Origin: Pseudomonadota bacterium
GTDB lineage: Bacteria > Pseudomonadota > Gammaproteobacteria > Burkholderiales > JAJZQI01
Length of the DNA stretch: 36,983 nt
Reading direction: 5' to 3'
Assembly (NCBI GenBank): GCA_021847305.1
Contig: JAJZTZ010000009.1
Location: forward strand, 1 to 36,983
Shown here: piece by piece, positions 6,129-31,661 of the stretch
How positions within the stretch are numbered: the stretch's first letter is position 1
Layout of the letters: the number at the start of each line of letters is the position of its first letter
Position numbers and translations under genes: made by a program
Notes under the pieces: model-generated
What the model was told of the DNA's origin: nothing
The model's database searches: none
What the model saw: the letters and a program-made list of their open reading frames with translations, nothing else

Positions 6129-6950
6129 TCACTTCCTCAGGTAAAGCCAGGGAAAGGCTTTGCGGTGGGCGAAACGGAACAGCTGATCCATCACCAGCCC
6201 GATCAGGCCGATGAGGATGATGCCGACGAAAATCTTGTCGGTTTGCAGGAAACGCTGGGCTTTCAGAATGGAGTAACCCAGCCCGGAATTAGCCGCCACC
6301 AACTCGGCCACCACCAGATAGGTCCAGGCCCAACCCATGGTGACGCGCAGGGTATCCAGCAGCGCCGGCTTGGCCGACTGGAAAATCACCCGCTGGATGA
6401 TCTCGCTACGGGTCGCACCCATGGTCTGAGCCGCCTCGATCTGCGCCAACGGCACACGACGCACGTCTTCGGCCATCATCAGCACCATCTGAAAAAAGGT
6501 GCCGATCCAGATGATGGCGATCTTGGACGACTCGTCGATGCCTATCCACAGCATCACCAGCGGAATGAAAGCCACGGCCGGCATGTAGCGGATGAAATCG
6601 GTCAGCGGCTCCAGCATGGCCTGCACCGGACGGAAGGTGCCGATCAGCAAGCCCAGCGGCAGCGCGATCAGTGCCGACAACAAGAAACCCGCTGTCACAC
6701 GGTAAATACTGATCCACATATCGGCCAGCAGATCGTCTTCCTGATACCACTGGATCAGCCGGCGAAACACATCCAGCGGGCTGGGCATGAACACACTGTC
6801 ATCGGTTCCCATATGAGACAGCAGCCACCAGCCGAGCAGCGGCAGCAGCAAACCGACCAGGGCAAAACCCCAATACTGGCGCCGGCTCATCGGCCCGCGG
6901 ATTGACCATATGCCTGGCCGGGCAGAGCGTTGGGGACTTTTTCGTCGCAT
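6129..6950 (-). CDS. ABC transporter permease, nitrate/sulfonate/taurine type (putative guanidine importer)
   Basis: 273-residue inner-membrane permease with about six membrane segments, the first around residues 28-47 (WGFALVGLLLPLLGWWLL). The cytoplasmic EAA loop reads EAAQTMGATRSEIIQRVIFQ and docks the ATPase. Relatives are SsuC/TauC. The start at 6950 has AGGA 9 nt upstream; ATG 6890 is a possible internal alternative. This is the first gene after the riboswitch, about 125 nt downstream of its conserved 3' core. No periplasmic binding-protein gene lies between riboswitch and permease, although most such clusters carry one there. Confidence 0.92.
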   Translation of the reverse strand: MRRKSPQRSARPGIWSIRGPMSRRQYWGFALVGLLLPLLGWWLLSHMGTDDSVFMPSPLDVFRRLIQWYQEDDLLADMWISIYRVTAGFLLSALIALPLGLLIGTFRPVQAMLEPLTDFIRYMPAVAFIPLVMLWIGIDESSKIAIIWIGTFFQMVLMMAEDVRRVPLAQIEAAQTMGATRSEIIQRVIFQSAKPALLDTLRVTMGWAWTYLVVAELVAANSGLGYSILKAQRFLQTDKIFVGIILIGLIGLVMDQLFRFAHRKAFPWLYLRK

Positions 6951-7073: not shown

Positions 7074-7203
7074 AATCTCCCGGGCTTTTGTCCCTCCGTG
7101 GAGCCCCGCCTGCATCAGCGGAACCGGCCAGCTCTCGGACCAGTCGTTTCTGTGCGAAACCGGAACCCTAGCCGACCTAAGGCACCCATCGGCGCCTCTC
7201 TGA
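7074..7203 (-). ncRNA. Guanidine-I riboswitch (ykkC-yxkD leader)
   Basis: On the minus strand the leader contains the hallmark conserved blocks of the ykkC/guanidine-I aptamer in order: CTAGGGTTCCG (7171-7161), GACTGGTCCGAGAG (about 7144-7131), then CCACGGA and GGGACAAAAGCCCGGGAGA ending at 7076. The class binds free guanidinium and typically turns on guanidine carboxylase and transporter genes. A predicted sigma-54 start at about 7203 puts the aptamer at the very 5' end of the transcript. No classic U-tract terminator is visible between the aptamer and the permease start, so the output may be translational, or an anti-terminator I cannot resolve by eye. Confidence 0.93.
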
Positions 7204-7214
7204 ATAAGCTTAAA

Positions 7215-7229
7215 GCATTGTTTATGCCA
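7215..7229 (-). promoter_or_regulatory. Sigma-54 (-24/-12) promoter of the guanidine operon
   Basis: Minus strand reads TGGCATAAACAATGC: a -24 GG and -12 GC separated by exactly 10 nt, with the TGGCA and TGC contexts expected for RpoN. Predicted +1 is about 7203, directly at the riboswitch 5' end. It matches the consensus TGGCACG-N4-TTGC well at the invariant positions. Confidence 0.75.
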
Positions 7230-7303: not shown

Positions 7304-7320
7304 CGCACCAATGAAGTGCG
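7304..7320. promoter_or_regulatory. NtrC-type enhancer palindrome
   Basis: CGCACCAATGAAGTGCG is a 17-bp dyad with 5-bp arms and 7-bp centre, the same architecture as NtrC sites (GCACCAA...GTGC). It is centred about 109 bp upstream of the predicted guanidine-operon start, typical for enhancer-bound NtrC. Only one clear site is seen. Confidence 0.55.
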
Positions 7321-7340: not shown

Positions 7341-7461
7341 CAAAAAAAGGGGCGACCGAAGTCGCCCGAAAACACACACTGAGGAGGTTCAATGCAAAAC
7401 TGCCTTGTCTGGAATGTACAGAAACGTCGCACTGACAAATTCAAGACATTGCAAATTTCAA
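7341..7461 (-). ncRNA. Candidate sigma-54-dependent small RNA (about 120 nt)
   Basis: A 120-nt stretch on the minus strand is framed by a predicted RpoN promoter (start about 7461) and the strong terminator at 7342-7367. No open reading frame with a ribosome site lies on this strand. The RNA would carry CCTCCTC at 7387-7381, complementary to Shine-Dalgarno sequences, about 14 nt before the terminator stem: a plausible seed for an Hfq-type regulator. Alternatives are a 3'-UTR fragment of the glc transcript, or a false pairing of promoter and terminator. I know of no named homologue. Confidence 0.5.
7342..7367 (-). terminator. Intrinsic terminator with TTCG tetraloop and seven-T tail
   Basis: Minus strand: GGGCGAC-TTCG-GTCGCCC, a perfect 7-bp stem with the extra-stable UUCG loop, followed by C and seven T (7348-7342). 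It would end either the candidate sRNA from the sigma-54 promoter at 7473-7487 or read-through from the glc operon. Confidence 0.88.
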
Positions 7462-7472
7462 ATTGGTATAAA

Positions 7473-7487
7473 GCATGGTCCGTGCCA
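7473..7487 (-). promoter_or_regulatory. Second sigma-54 (-24/-12) promoter, upstream of the candidate sRNA
   Basis: Minus strand TGGCACGGACCATGC matches TGGCACG-N4-TTGC at all but one base, with GG and GC exactly 10 nt apart. Predicted +1 is about 7461. It reads toward the terminator at 7342-7367 and, beyond it, the guanidine operon. Confidence 0.7.
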
Positions 7488-7552
7488 TGATTGCTGCGCT
7501 GCACGCGCAAACCGAATGGGAACATGCAAGCATAAAATAATTAGTCATTATA

Positions 7553-7680: not shown

Positions 7681-7732
7681 CTGCCGCACCAATATGAGCG
7701 AAGGGTGATATTACCGCGCCAACTCGGTGCGG

Positions 7733-8941
7733 TTAGCGGAGGTCGAACAATTCGATCCAGTGGCGTACGGGAATGCCGGATCCGCTGGCCAGGTGCATCT
7801 GGCAGCCGACATTGGCGGTGACAATCTGTTCGGGCTGGCCGCTGTTAAGCGCCGCCAGTTTGTTATGCAGCAGTTGTTGCGACAGCTCCGGCTGCAGAAT
7901 CGAATAGGTGCCGGCCGAACCGCAACAAAGATGGGCATCCGGCACGCCGGTAAGCGTAAACCCGGTGCGTTGTAATAATGCCTCCACCGCATTGGGCAAC
8001 TTCTGGCCGTGCTGCAGTGTACAAGGAGCATGCACGGCAATGGGGCCGGCCTTGGCCGGCTGCAGGCGCGACAGATCCTCCTGCAGCAGGATTTCCACCA
8101 GATCGCGGCTCAGCGCCGATACCCGCGCGGCCTTTGCCGCATAGGCAGCATCTTCGTGCAACAAGTGGCCGTAGTCTTTTACCGTCACGCCGCAGCCGCT
8201 GGCCGTCACCACAATGGCTTCCGCCCCCGCCTTGATATGCGGCCACCAGGCGTCGATATTGCGGCGGGCGAAATGTTTCGCTTCCTCTGCCGCACTCATG
8301 TGCTGACTTAGCGCACCGCAGCAGCCCGTTTCGCCGATTTCCAGCAGGGTAATGCCGAGCCTGTCCAGCACGCGCGCCGCGGCGGCATTGGTCAGCGGTG
8401 TGGCGGACGGCTGCACGCAACCCTGCAGCGCCAGCATGGTGCGGACATGACGTGTAACAGGCCAGGCGCCGGCCTGCTGCGGCTGCGGTAGTTTGGCGCG
8501 CAACGCGGCAGGCAACAGGGGTGCAGCGAGGCGCCCCAGCTTGAGCAAAGACGCAAAGCGGTTACGATAAGGAATGACGGTGCGCAAGGCGCGACGTAGT
8601 AGGTTTTCTTTAAATGAACGGCCAACCTGCTGTTCCACCACGGCACGGCCGATGTCGACCAGGTGGCCGTACTGCACGCCCGACGGGCAGGTCGATTCGC
8701 ACGAACGGCAGGTGAGGCAGCGATCCAGATGGGTCTGGGTTTTTTCCGTCGCCGGCTGCCCTTCCAGCACCTGCTTGATCAGATAAATGCGTCCGCGCGG
8801 GCTGTCCAGCTCGTCGCCCTTGATCTGATAGGTCGGACAGGTGGCGGTACAGAAACCGCAATGCACGCAGGAACGCAGAATGGCATCGGCTTCCTGACCG
8901 GCAGCGGTGTTCTTGAATGCATCGCTCAGGGACGTTTGCAT
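7733..8941 (-). CDS. glcF: Glycolate oxidase iron-sulfur subunit GlcF
   Basis: 402-residue Fe-S subunit of membrane-associated glycolate oxidase, passing electrons from GlcD/GlcE flavins toward the quinone pool. Two ferredoxin-type 4Fe-4S motifs are seen: CVHCGFCTATCP (Cys 25, 28, 31, 35) and CLTCRSCESTCP (Cys 75, 78, 81, 85). CCG-domain motifs follow: ETGCCGALSQH, HAPCTLQHG and LCCGSAGTYS. Length is normal for GlcF. The start lies 1 nt after the glcE stop. It is the last gene of the operon that begins with the ThDP enzyme. No malate synthase or glcG follows as in E. coli. Confidence 0.95.
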   Translation of the reverse strand: MQTSLSDAFKNTAAGQEADAILRSCVHCGFCTATCPTYQIKGDELDSPRGRIYLIKQVLEGQPATEKTQTHLDRCLTCRSCESTCPSGVQYGHLVDIGRAVVEQQVGRSFKENLLRRALRTVIPYRNRFASLLKLGRLAAPLLPAALRAKLPQPQQAGAWPVTRHVRTMLALQGCVQPSATPLTNAAAARVLDRLGITLLEIGETGCCGALSQHMSAAEEAKHFARRNIDAWWPHIKAGAEAIVVTASGCGVTVKDYGHLLHEDAAYAAKAARVSALSRDLVEILLQEDLSRLQPAKAGPIAVHAPCTLQHGQKLPNAVEALLQRTGFTLTGVPDAHLCCGSAGTYSILQPELSQQLLHNKLAALNSGQPEQIVTANVGCQMHLASGSGIPVRHWIELFDLR

Positions 8942-8942
8942 C

Positions 8943-10013
8943 TTATAAGCCTTCGTACATGCGGCCGGGGTTGAGAATACCGGCCGGATCGAAGGCCTGC
9001 TTCAGCCGTTGGTGCGCCTGCCAGAGGCCGGCGGGCAAAGGCTGGAAAGCATCCGAGCCGCTACCACCATGCAGCAGGGTAGCGTGACCACCGAGTGCGG
9101 CCACGGCGGCACGTACCTGCTCGATCGACGCAGCGGTTTTCAGCCAGCGTTGCGCCCCGCCCCACTCCAGCAGCCAGTCGCCCGGCAGTTTCGGCTGATC
9201 GGCCGTTTGCGGCAGGGCGATGCGCCACAAAGAAGCGGCTTCGGCGAAGAAAGGCAGCTGCAGTTCGCGCAGGCTGCGCCAGAACGTGGCCGCGTCCACC
9301 AGCACATCGCCCGCCACGCGCTGTTTGACGGCCGCTACAGCGCTCTTTGCACCGGCAAAGCGCAGATACAGGTAACCGTCCACCCAGGCGGAAGCCGACA
9401 GCGGTACCGGTTGGCCAGCCAGTTTATTCATCTGTTCCAGTGCAGCAGGCAAGGTGGCCGGCTGCACCAGGGTGAGCTTGTCCTGCGGCACGGGCAGCAC
9501 TTTCAGGCTGACGTCCAGCAGCACACCCAGGGTGCCCAGTGCGCCCGCCATGAGGCGGGCGGCATCATAACCGGCCACGTTTTTCATCACTTCGCCGCCA
9601 AAATGCAGCAGCTCACCCTTGCCGTTGATCACATGGCAGCCCAGCACGAAATCGCGCGCCGAACCGGCATACGGGCGACGCGGGCCGGACAGATTGCAGG
9701 CGATGGTACCGCCCAGTGTGGCATTCGGTCCCCAGTGGGGCGGCTCGAACGGCAGCAGCTGGCCTTTTTCCGCCAGCGCCGCTTCAATTTCTGCCAGCGG
9801 CGTACCGGCCCGTGCCGTCAACACCAGTTCGGTCGGTTCGTAGCTGTTAATGCCGCTGTGGCCGGACACATCCAGCACAGTTAACTCAGCGCCTGTGGTT
9901 TGCCGGCCGTAAAACGCCTTGCTGTTGCCGCCGACGATTTTCAGCGGGGTTTTGCCGGCATAAGCCGCCTGTACCTGTTGTTGCAGGGAAGCAGTGAGAT
10001 CGTTTGCCGGCAT
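8943..10013 (-). CDS. glcE: Glycolate oxidase FAD-binding subunit GlcE
   Basis: 356 residues; the second flavin-binding subunit of glycolate oxidase. The FAD_binding_4 PP-loop region reads LKIVGGNSKAFYG...GPNATLGGTIACNLSGPRRP, with GEVMKNVAGYDAARLMAGAL, and the C-terminus ends FDPAGILNPGRMYEGL as in GlcE. The reading frame is open far upstream, but the start is set at ATG 10013 (MPANDLTAS), which shares its A with the glcD TGA (TGATG), the usual coupling in glcDEF operons. Confidence 0.94.
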   Translation of the reverse strand: MPANDLTASLQQQVQAAYAGKTPLKIVGGNSKAFYGRQTTGAELTVLDVSGHSGINSYEPTELVLTARAGTPLAEIEAALAEKGQLLPFEPPHWGPNATLGGTIACNLSGPRRPYAGSARDFVLGCHVINGKGELLHFGGEVMKNVAGYDAARLMAGALGTLGVLLDVSLKVLPVPQDKLTLVQPATLPAALEQMNKLAGQPVPLSASAWVDGYLYLRFAGAKSAVAAVKQRVAGDVLVDAATFWRSLRELQLPFFAEAASLWRIALPQTADQPKLPGDWLLEWGGAQRWLKTAASIEQVRAAVAALGGHATLLHGGSGSDAFQPLPAGLWQAHQRLKQAFDPAGILNPGRMYEGL

Positions 10014-11506
10014 CAGAACCGCTCCAGCTCGGGAAACGGCAGCTTGCCGTCGTGCACATGCATGGCGCCGAATTCGGCGCAGCGGTGCAAGGTCGGCACG
10101 GCCTTGCCCGGATTGAGCAGGCCCTGCGGGTCGAAGGCATGCTTGATGGCGTGAAACTGGGTCAGCTCGGCACTGTCGTACTGCACACACATCTGATTGA
10201 TCTTTTCCATACCCACACCGTGCTCGCCGGTGATGCTGCCGCCCACCTCGACGCACAGCTCGAGAATCTTGCTGCCGAATTCTTCGGCATTCGCCAGCTC
10301 GCCCGGTTTGTTTGCATCGTACAGAATCAACGGGTGCAAATTGCCATCGCCGGCGTGGAACACGTTGGCCACCGCCAGACCGTATTGCTGCGACAATTCG
10401 CCGATGCGGCGCAAGACAAAAGGAAGGTGACGGCGCGGTATCGTCCCGTCCATGCAATAGTAGTCGGGCGACAGGCGACCCACGGCGGGGAAGGCCGACT
10501 TGCGCCCTTTCCACAACAACGCCCGTTCCTGCTCGTCGCGCGCCAGCCGCACTTCGGTGGCACCGATGTCTTTAAGAATGGCCTGCACCTGCTCCACCTG
10601 CTCGGCCACTTCTTCGCACGTTCCATCCAGCTCGCACAGCAAAATGGCTTCGGCGTCGCGCGGGTAGCCGGCATGGGCGAAATCTTCCGCCGCGCCGATG
10701 GACAGCTTGTCCATCATTTCCAGCCCGCCCGGGATGACACCGGCCGCGATGATCGCCCCCACCGCGGCACCGGCTTTTTCCACGTCGTCGAACGCCGCCA
10801 GCATGACCTTGGCTTTTTCCGGCACCGGCAGAAGCCGCACGGTCACTTCCACAATCACGCCCAGCATGCCTTCCGAACCGGTCATCAGCGCCAGCAGATC
10901 GTAGCCGGCGCTGTCCAGTGCTTCGCTGCCGACCACCAGCAGGTCGCCCTCGATGGTCACCAGCTTGATCTGCAGGATGTTGTGCACCGTCAGGCCGTAT
11001 TTCAGGCAATGCACGCCGCCGGAGTTTTCCGCCACATTGCCGCCGATGGTGCAGGCGATTTGCGACGAGGGATCGGGCGCGTAATACAAACCATATTGAG
11101 ACGCCGCCTGGGAAATAGCCAGGTTGCGCACGCCCGGCTGCACCCGTGCGGTGCGTGCCAGCGTGTCGATAGCCAGAATGGATTTCAGTTTTGCGAGGCT
11201 CAGCAGCACGCCATTGGGATGCGGCAGCGCGCCGCCGGACAGGCCGGTACCGGCACCGCGCGCCACCACTGGCAGCCGGTGCTGATGACACAGCCGCATG
11301 ACGGCCTGCACCTGCCCCACCGACTGCGGCAGCACAGTCACCCAGGGCAGTTGCCGGTAGGCGGACAAGCCGTCGCATTCGTATGGACGCAGGTCTTCCT
11401 CTTCAAACAGCACGCAGTCAGCCGGCAACAGCTGCAGCAACTGTGCCACCAACTCGGCTTTGCCGATAACAGGAACGTGATCGTGCTCGCAGCCGTGTTG
11501 CGACAT
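10013..11506 (-). CDS. glcD: Glycolate oxidase FAD-linked subunit GlcD
   Basis: 497 residues; catalytic flavoprotein subunit oxidising glycolate (and often D-lactate) to glyoxylate. FAD-binding motifs: VVARGAGTGLSGGALP, APDPSSQIACTIGGNVAENS, LMTGSEGMLGVI. C-terminal catalytic region: VFHAGDGNLHPLI, GGSITGEHGVGMEK, FDPQGLLNPGK. Length equals the E. coli protein (499). Start overlaps the kinase stop by one base (TGATG), so the five genes ThDP enzyme, kinase, glcD, glcE, glcF appear to be one transcript. Confidence 0.96.
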   Translation of the reverse strand: MSQHGCEHDHVPVIGKAELVAQLLQLLPADCVLFEEEDLRPYECDGLSAYRQLPWVTVLPQSVGQVQAVMRLCHQHRLPVVARGAGTGLSGGALPHPNGVLLSLAKLKSILAIDTLARTARVQPGVRNLAISQAASQYGLYYAPDPSSQIACTIGGNVAENSGGVHCLKYGLTVHNILQIKLVTIEGDLLVVGSEALDSAGYDLLALMTGSEGMLGVIVEVTVRLLPVPEKAKVMLAAFDDVEKAGAAVGAIIAAGVIPGGLEMMDKLSIGAAEDFAHAGYPRDAEAILLCELDGTCEEVAEQVEQVQAILKDIGATEVRLARDEQERALLWKGRKSAFPAVGRLSPDYYCMDGTIPRRHLPFVLRRIGELSQQYGLAVANVFHAGDGNLHPLILYDANKPGELANAEEFGSKILELCVEVGGSITGEHGVGMEKINQMCVQYDSAELTQFHAIKHAFDPQGLLNPGKAVPTLHRCAEFGAMHVHDGKLPFPELERF

Positions 11507-31468: not shown

Positions 31469-31646
31469 GGCGCCCCCGCAACTGCCGATGGGTTACTATC
31501 CTGAACCGGAGGTTCAGGGGGTCGCAGCGGGACTACTTCGGGTACATCCGGGGAGGACGCGCACACCAGTAATCGTATGAGCCACAACCGAGTCGAGTAG
31601 ACATTGGTTCAAGGAACTCGTAACCGTCACGAACAGCGCAGGGACA
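31469..31646 (-). ncRNA. ssrS: 6S RNA
   Basis: About 178 nt between zapA and fau. The minus strand shows the complementary closing ends (GTCCCTGCGCTGTTCG at 5', CGGCAGTTGCGGGG at 3') and the conserved 3'-half hairpin CCTGAACC-TCC-GGTTCAGG (31518-31500). TACCCGAAGTAGTCCC and CTGCGACC flank it, as in betaproteobacterial 6S. A -10 element TATACT (31659-31654) precedes the 5' end. It sequesters sigma-70 RNA polymerase by mimicking an open promoter. Ends are approximate to a few nucleotides. Confidence 0.87.
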
Positions 31647-31661
31647 AAGAAACAGTATAAC

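Follow-up and report, generated by a model that had tools for sequence, protein, structure and literature searches.

A short noncoding unit on the minus strand of the window (the whole 36,983-nt stretch of DNA analyzed here) is very likely the transcription unit of a porin minus its riboswitch and coding region. The unit lies between a glcF-like gene and a guanidine operon, and its predicted transcript is ~120 nt long (7342..7462). The initial annotation had described it as a free-standing small RNA (sRNA) gene by design; comparison with a second species of the genus corrects this, because there the same promoter and tail belong to, and flank, a riboswitch-controlled porin gene, which points to derivation from an mRNA gene by loss. 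As to whether the remnant of the porin unit now acts, standing alone, as a nitrogen-induced trans-acting sRNA, we regard the sequence evidence as evenly balanced.

Genomes and source of the window

The window is contig C40 of the fragmented assembly G000. It is 100% identical to G001, the other genome of the genus, across the 18.4 kb compared (identity over at least 18.4 kb), while another contig of G000, C143, reaches no more than 81.5% identity with its G001 counterpart. C40 therefore probably belongs to the G001 species and was binned in G000 with a second species. Two species of one genus thus seem to be mixed in G000 (C40 and C163), in agreement with the figures given for the assembly itself (85% complete, 5.9% contaminated). 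Since G001 is identical to the window, it provides no independent test of the window's features; comparisons were made with the sister locus (L040), located on contig C163 of G000 and belonging to the second species. Outgroups were searched by BLAST and by pattern over 399 sampled genomes of the order. The window also carries a 6S RNA at 31469-31647 on the minus strand (Rfam RF00013, 60.5 bits).

The sister locus carries a porin between the same two ends

Across glcDEF and the guanidine operon, the sister locus and the window are 83-88% identical at the DNA level. In the sister locus, glcF is followed by a sigma-54 site, a guanidine-I riboswitch, a TorF porin, a conserved module, a second sigma-54 site, a second riboswitch and the same operon; in the window, the order is glcF, the porin-type promoter, the module, sigma-54 site, riboswitch and operon, without the porin. 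The porin of the sister species (295 residues) belongs to the TorF family, with 73.8 bits for TIGR02001 (cut-off 47.15). Together with its own guanidine-I riboswitch (C163:10278-10394) and sigma-54 promoter, it occupies 9279-10394 of the locus, the promoter being the sigma-54 site TGGCACGGACCCTGCT. A few bases past the porin stop codon we found GCAGTTTTTGCATTGAACCTCCTCAGTGTGTGTTTTCGGGCGACTTCGGTCGCCC followed by T8; as in 3'UTR-derived sRNAs, the module is located in an mRNA 3'UTR and has its terminator in common with that mRNA, which is absent from the window. The closest TorF copy elsewhere in G001 shows 35% identity only.

TorF porins also adjoin guanidine operons in three other lineages (L058, L062 and L116), and TorF genes with their own sigma-54 sites directly upstream occur in L127, L128 and L129; in L127 and L129, the porin is followed by a formamidase/acetamidase-like gene, as judged by eye from the translated start. 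From its setting, the porin of the sister locus may be an outer-membrane channel for guanidine or similar compounds. We infer that the porin was lost in the window species rather than gained in its sister, the arrangement of the sister locus being favored as the older state because the promoter-riboswitch-gene order is common (58 of 72 guanidine-I leaders).

The promoter of the candidate RNA

The near-consensus sigma-54 promoter previously noted at this place was confirmed as TGGCACGGACCATGC at 7487-7473 of the minus strand. We scanned the window with a sigma-54 matrix trained on 53 sites from other species, which score between 11.6 and 26.5 bits. The site at 7487 (TGGCACGGACCATGCT; 7472..7487, minus strand) obtained 16.6 bits, the highest score on both strands. 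A pattern search found two copies of TGGCAYNNNNNWTGCW in the window, where 0.34 would be expected, and the second copy is the promoter of the guanidine operon (7229-7214). The site is common to the porin promoter of the sister locus, with which it shares AATC-TGGCACGGACC[A/C]TGCTT (20/21 bases the same, plus one indel). Based on the spacing from the -12 element, transcription would start at about 7461/7462.

An NtrC-like half site, CGCTCATATTGGTGCG (7685..7700, minus strand), is located ~200 bp upstream of this promoter. It aligns with CGTTCATCTTGGTGCG of the sister locus, where the distance to the promoter is nearly equal (about 212-215 bp), and the half site TTGGTGCG is kept in both species. 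The NtrC consensus is matched here by one half only, and we consider the site a candidate NtrC enhancer for the candidate RNA. The upstream neighbor is the glcF-like gene, encoding an iron-sulfur subunit (7733..8941, minus strand; Pfam) and followed by glcE and glcD; glcF flanks the sister locus too.

The guanidine operon has its own promoter, dyad and riboswitch

An NtrC-type dyad (7304..7320, minus strand) lies 3' of the candidate RNA's terminator; the sigma-54 site at 7229-7214 follows ~90 nt further downstream. The candidate RNA had been proposed to share this dyad. Its position, and the near-perfect NtrC site TGCACCTGATTGGTGCG aligned with it in the sister locus, assign it instead to the promoter of the guanidine operon. 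This promoter, TGGCATAAACAATGCT (7214..7229, minus strand), was detected by matrix and by pattern, and its equivalent in the sister locus, TGGCACAGAGCGTGCT, stands at the same place. It precedes a guanidine-I riboswitch (7075..7182, minus strand; Rfam RF00442, 85.5 bits) and an ABC permease (6129..6950, minus strand; Pfam PF00528), the first gene of the guanidine/urea carboxylase operon. The permease ortholog and the downstream genes of the sister locus were identified by NCBIfam.

We surveyed 72 guanidine-I leaders from 80 loci, with random places in the same loci as the control. A sigma-54 site was present 50-100 nt before the riboswitch core in 58 of them, compared with 0.7% in the control. 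The surveyed operons (L045-L123) come from Betaproteobacteria and some other groups, and many have NtrC-like sites further upstream. In the literature searched, we found no statement of such a pairing of sigma-54 with the guanidine-I riboswitch. The locus suggests that guanidine use in Betaproteobacteria is controlled twice, at the promoter by sigma-54 (probably together with NtrC) and in the leader by the riboswitch.

A conserved 3' module with a CCUCC loop

The transcript would end at a TTCG-capped, U7-tailed intrinsic terminator, which had already been recognized and which we read as GGGCGAC-TTCG-GTCGCCC-C-T7 at 7367-7342 (7342..7367, minus strand; 7-bp stem, TTCG loop, T7). The same terminator ends the porin unit of the sister locus. 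It forms the end of a conserved 3' module, the former porin 3'UTR (GCAGTTTTGCATTGAACCTCCTCAGTGTGTGTTTTCGGGCGACTTCGGTCGCCC-C-T7; 7342..7403, minus strand), that is near-identical in the sister locus: 54/55 columns of its core are identical (98%), the sole difference being one indel in the U run. One further base differs where the T run begins, and the flanks beyond the module are far less similar. The initial annotation had predicted that promoter and terminator would be conserved together in relatives, and both ends are indeed kept in the sister locus, the only relative available.

Upstream of the terminator, the module is predicted in both species to fold into a hairpin, UGCAUUGA-ACCUCC-UCAGUGUG (7375..7396, minus strand), with an 8-bp stem and an anti-Shine-Dalgarno loop. 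The exposed CCTCCTC that had been proposed therefore stands in part, with ACCUCC in the loop (7388-7383) and the last UC of CCUCCUC paired in the stem. The predicted RNA folds better than its shuffles (z -3.15, or ~-3.2), as does its 3' half (likewise ~-3.2), with the terminator contributing most; the stability of the hairpin alone is not unusual (z -0.7). No open reading frame of useful length was found in the sense direction, in line with the claim that the ~120 nt between promoter and terminator lack a coding frame. None of the other TorF porin loci examined showed the CCUCC module in its 3'UTR.

The rest of the unit is a 68-nt interior (7404..7471, minus strand) with no detectable similarity to the riboswitch or porin found at this place in the sister species. 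Local alignment of this interior against the sister locus revealed no remnants of either (28% of shuffles score as well), and anchored alignments to the same locus were likewise no better than chance.

As a proxy for neutral change, we used third codon positions; in glcF, glcD and the permease, the identity of these positions between the two species is 63-72%. Within the module, a 46-base exact run is among the longest in the whole 11-kb alignment, where the other such runs are coding or riboswitch. Because the core is 98% identical against 63-72% at third positions, and the flanks are much less alike, the constraint appears to bear on both the hairpin and the terminator, suggesting that the 3' module is probably under selection. 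This identity could predate the porin loss, since the loss is not datable with two species, and constraint after the loss is hence not proven.

Proposed function and its alternatives

Regarding the nitrogen-regulated sRNA originally suggested here, its sigma-54-type promoter, its strong terminator and an anti-Shine-Dalgarno loop are in place, and the genome has rpoN, ntrC and two hfq genes; the free-standing design and the shared dyad are not supported. We infer the transcription of the candidate RNA, its Hfq binding and its targets as follows. Loss of the riboswitch and of the porin coding region, with promoter and 3'UTR module kept, would have created a stand-alone unit of ~120 nt. In the mechanism we consider most likely, NtrC and sigma-54 would switch on the candidate RNA under nitrogen limitation. 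With its CCUCC-loop hairpin and U-tailed terminator, and probably helped by Hfq, this RNA would base-pair with ribosome-binding sites rich in purines and reduce the translation of a subset of mRNAs. The sister species would make the module within the porin mRNA or cut it from there. We tentatively propose, as a possibility rather than a probability, that a 3'UTR-borne, nitrogen-regulated anti-Shine-Dalgarno RNA outlived the deletion of riboswitch and porin and that the porin's sigma-54 promoter now drives it as a transcript of its own, freed from guanidine control with nitrogen control left in place. If true, the two close species would represent the before and after of a stand-alone regulatory RNA arising from the tail of a protein-coding gene.

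Targets pairing with the CCTCCTC segment had been expected. For 56 translation starts in the available DNA, the module gave duplex energies no better than its shuffled versions did. Near-matches to TGAGGAGGTTCAATG are about twice as frequent as those to the reversed control in two genomes (27 vs 13 and 26 vs 11), an excess that ribosome-binding sites alone could explain.

The main rival to a nitrogen-induced sRNA is a dead or idle relic, in which the porin was deleted, promoter and terminator were merely left behind, and any short transcript has no target. The interior without conserved sequence, the lack of relatives outside the genus (399 genomes), the absent target signal at the 56 translation starts and the undated porin loss all fit a relic; however, nearby neutral sites have changed far more than the promoter (20/21 plus one indel) and the core (54/55), in which the hairpin beyond the terminator is preserved too, and we consider a relic rather unlikely. 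More improbable in our view is that the tail is a mere 3' end element, a terminator with a protective hairpin for the porin mRNA that now stops read-through from glcDEF and shields the promoter of the guanidine operon. The terminator is kept in both species, and from glcF to 7367 the minus strand showed no other terminator-like site, as such a role would have it, but an identical 30-nt stretch with a CCUCC loop would be superfluous upstream of a bare terminator, and similar terminator stems in other loci occur without that hairpin stretch.

The history could also be reversed, with an ancestral stand-alone sRNA gene into which the sister species gained riboswitch and porin between promoter and body. 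The two end points are alike in both loci, as this would predict, but the insertion would have had to fall exactly between promoter and module while recreating the promoter-riboswitch spacing of other species, and TorF porins adjoin guanidine operons in the three other lineages mentioned above; we therefore hold this order of events to be very improbable. Finally, the plus strand could be the functional one, since GAGGAGG followed by ATG opens a 32-residue peptide (frame 7392-7490) with a perfect ribosome-binding site and spacing. The presence of GAGGAGG follows simply from the complementarity of CCTCCTC to a ribosome-binding site. In the sister locus, the frame is interrupted by a 1-nt indel and the protein sequence diverges at once, and no sigma-70 promoter-like site was found, which makes such a peptide scarcely credible.

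Comparison with known RNAs

No named RNA had been recognized at this locus, and this was borne out by Rfam, in which the ~120 nt matched 0 families at the gathering threshold. Searches of the 399 sampled genomes of the order did not find the module outside the genus; it is known from two species so far, with a putative seed identical in both. Outside the genus, BLAST mainly recovered the GGGCGAC-TTCG-GTCGCCC-like terminator stem, a common one, unaccompanied by the hairpin; the remaining matches were chance pieces. Pattern matches with 1-2 mismatches fell in unrelated settings (coding starts, a CRISPR array) with no such terminator behind, and a plasmid search for the region returned chance pieces only.

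AniS is FNR-dependent in Neisseria. The AniS family (RF02274) gave the best full-length resemblance, with 23.0 and 22.7 bits (E 0.05-0.08) under relaxed limits, the coordinates compared being 7342-7462 in the window and 9211-9298 in the sister locus. The alignment runs end to end in both species (CCUC..GUGUGUGU..terminator), but the scores are below the gathering score of 50, and membership is not demonstrated for the module. RF02278, the family of the Betaproteobacteria toxic small RNA or double-hairpin RNA, gave no match up to E 10.

CU-rich anti-Shine-Dalgarno stretches in unpaired regions have been described in the NmsR siblings of Neisseria meningitidis, which are short RNAs with hairpins (PMC5362039), and in the double-hairpin RNAs (RF02278) of Burkholderia (PMC5688073). 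The module resembles them as a short betaproteobacterial RNA with hairpins and an unpaired anti-Shine-Dalgarno stretch; unlike them, the candidate RNA has a single locus and a sigma-54 promoter. NrsZ is cited in PMC9731577 as an RpoN-dependent stand-alone sRNA of pseudomonads found downstream of ntrBC. With NrsZ and CrcZ, the candidate RNA shares a sigma-54 promoter directly upstream and a noncoding unit with an intrinsic terminator, both found here in the sequence; it differs from them in that it is not beside ntrBC, has no Rfam match to them and derives from a porin unit. GlnZ is an sRNA of Enterobacteriaceae that RNase E, with Hfq, frees from the glnA 3'UTR and that acts as a repressor of sucA (PMC9731577). 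No sequence kinship to GlnZ was found, and in the window, the parent gene (the porin) is absent and the promoter abuts the module. The likeness lies in the origin and the proposed role: like GlnZ, which comes from the 3'UTR of a nitrogen-assimilation mRNA and is expressed under nitrogen limitation, the candidate RNA would be a nitrogen-responsive base-pairing regulator derived from an mRNA tail.
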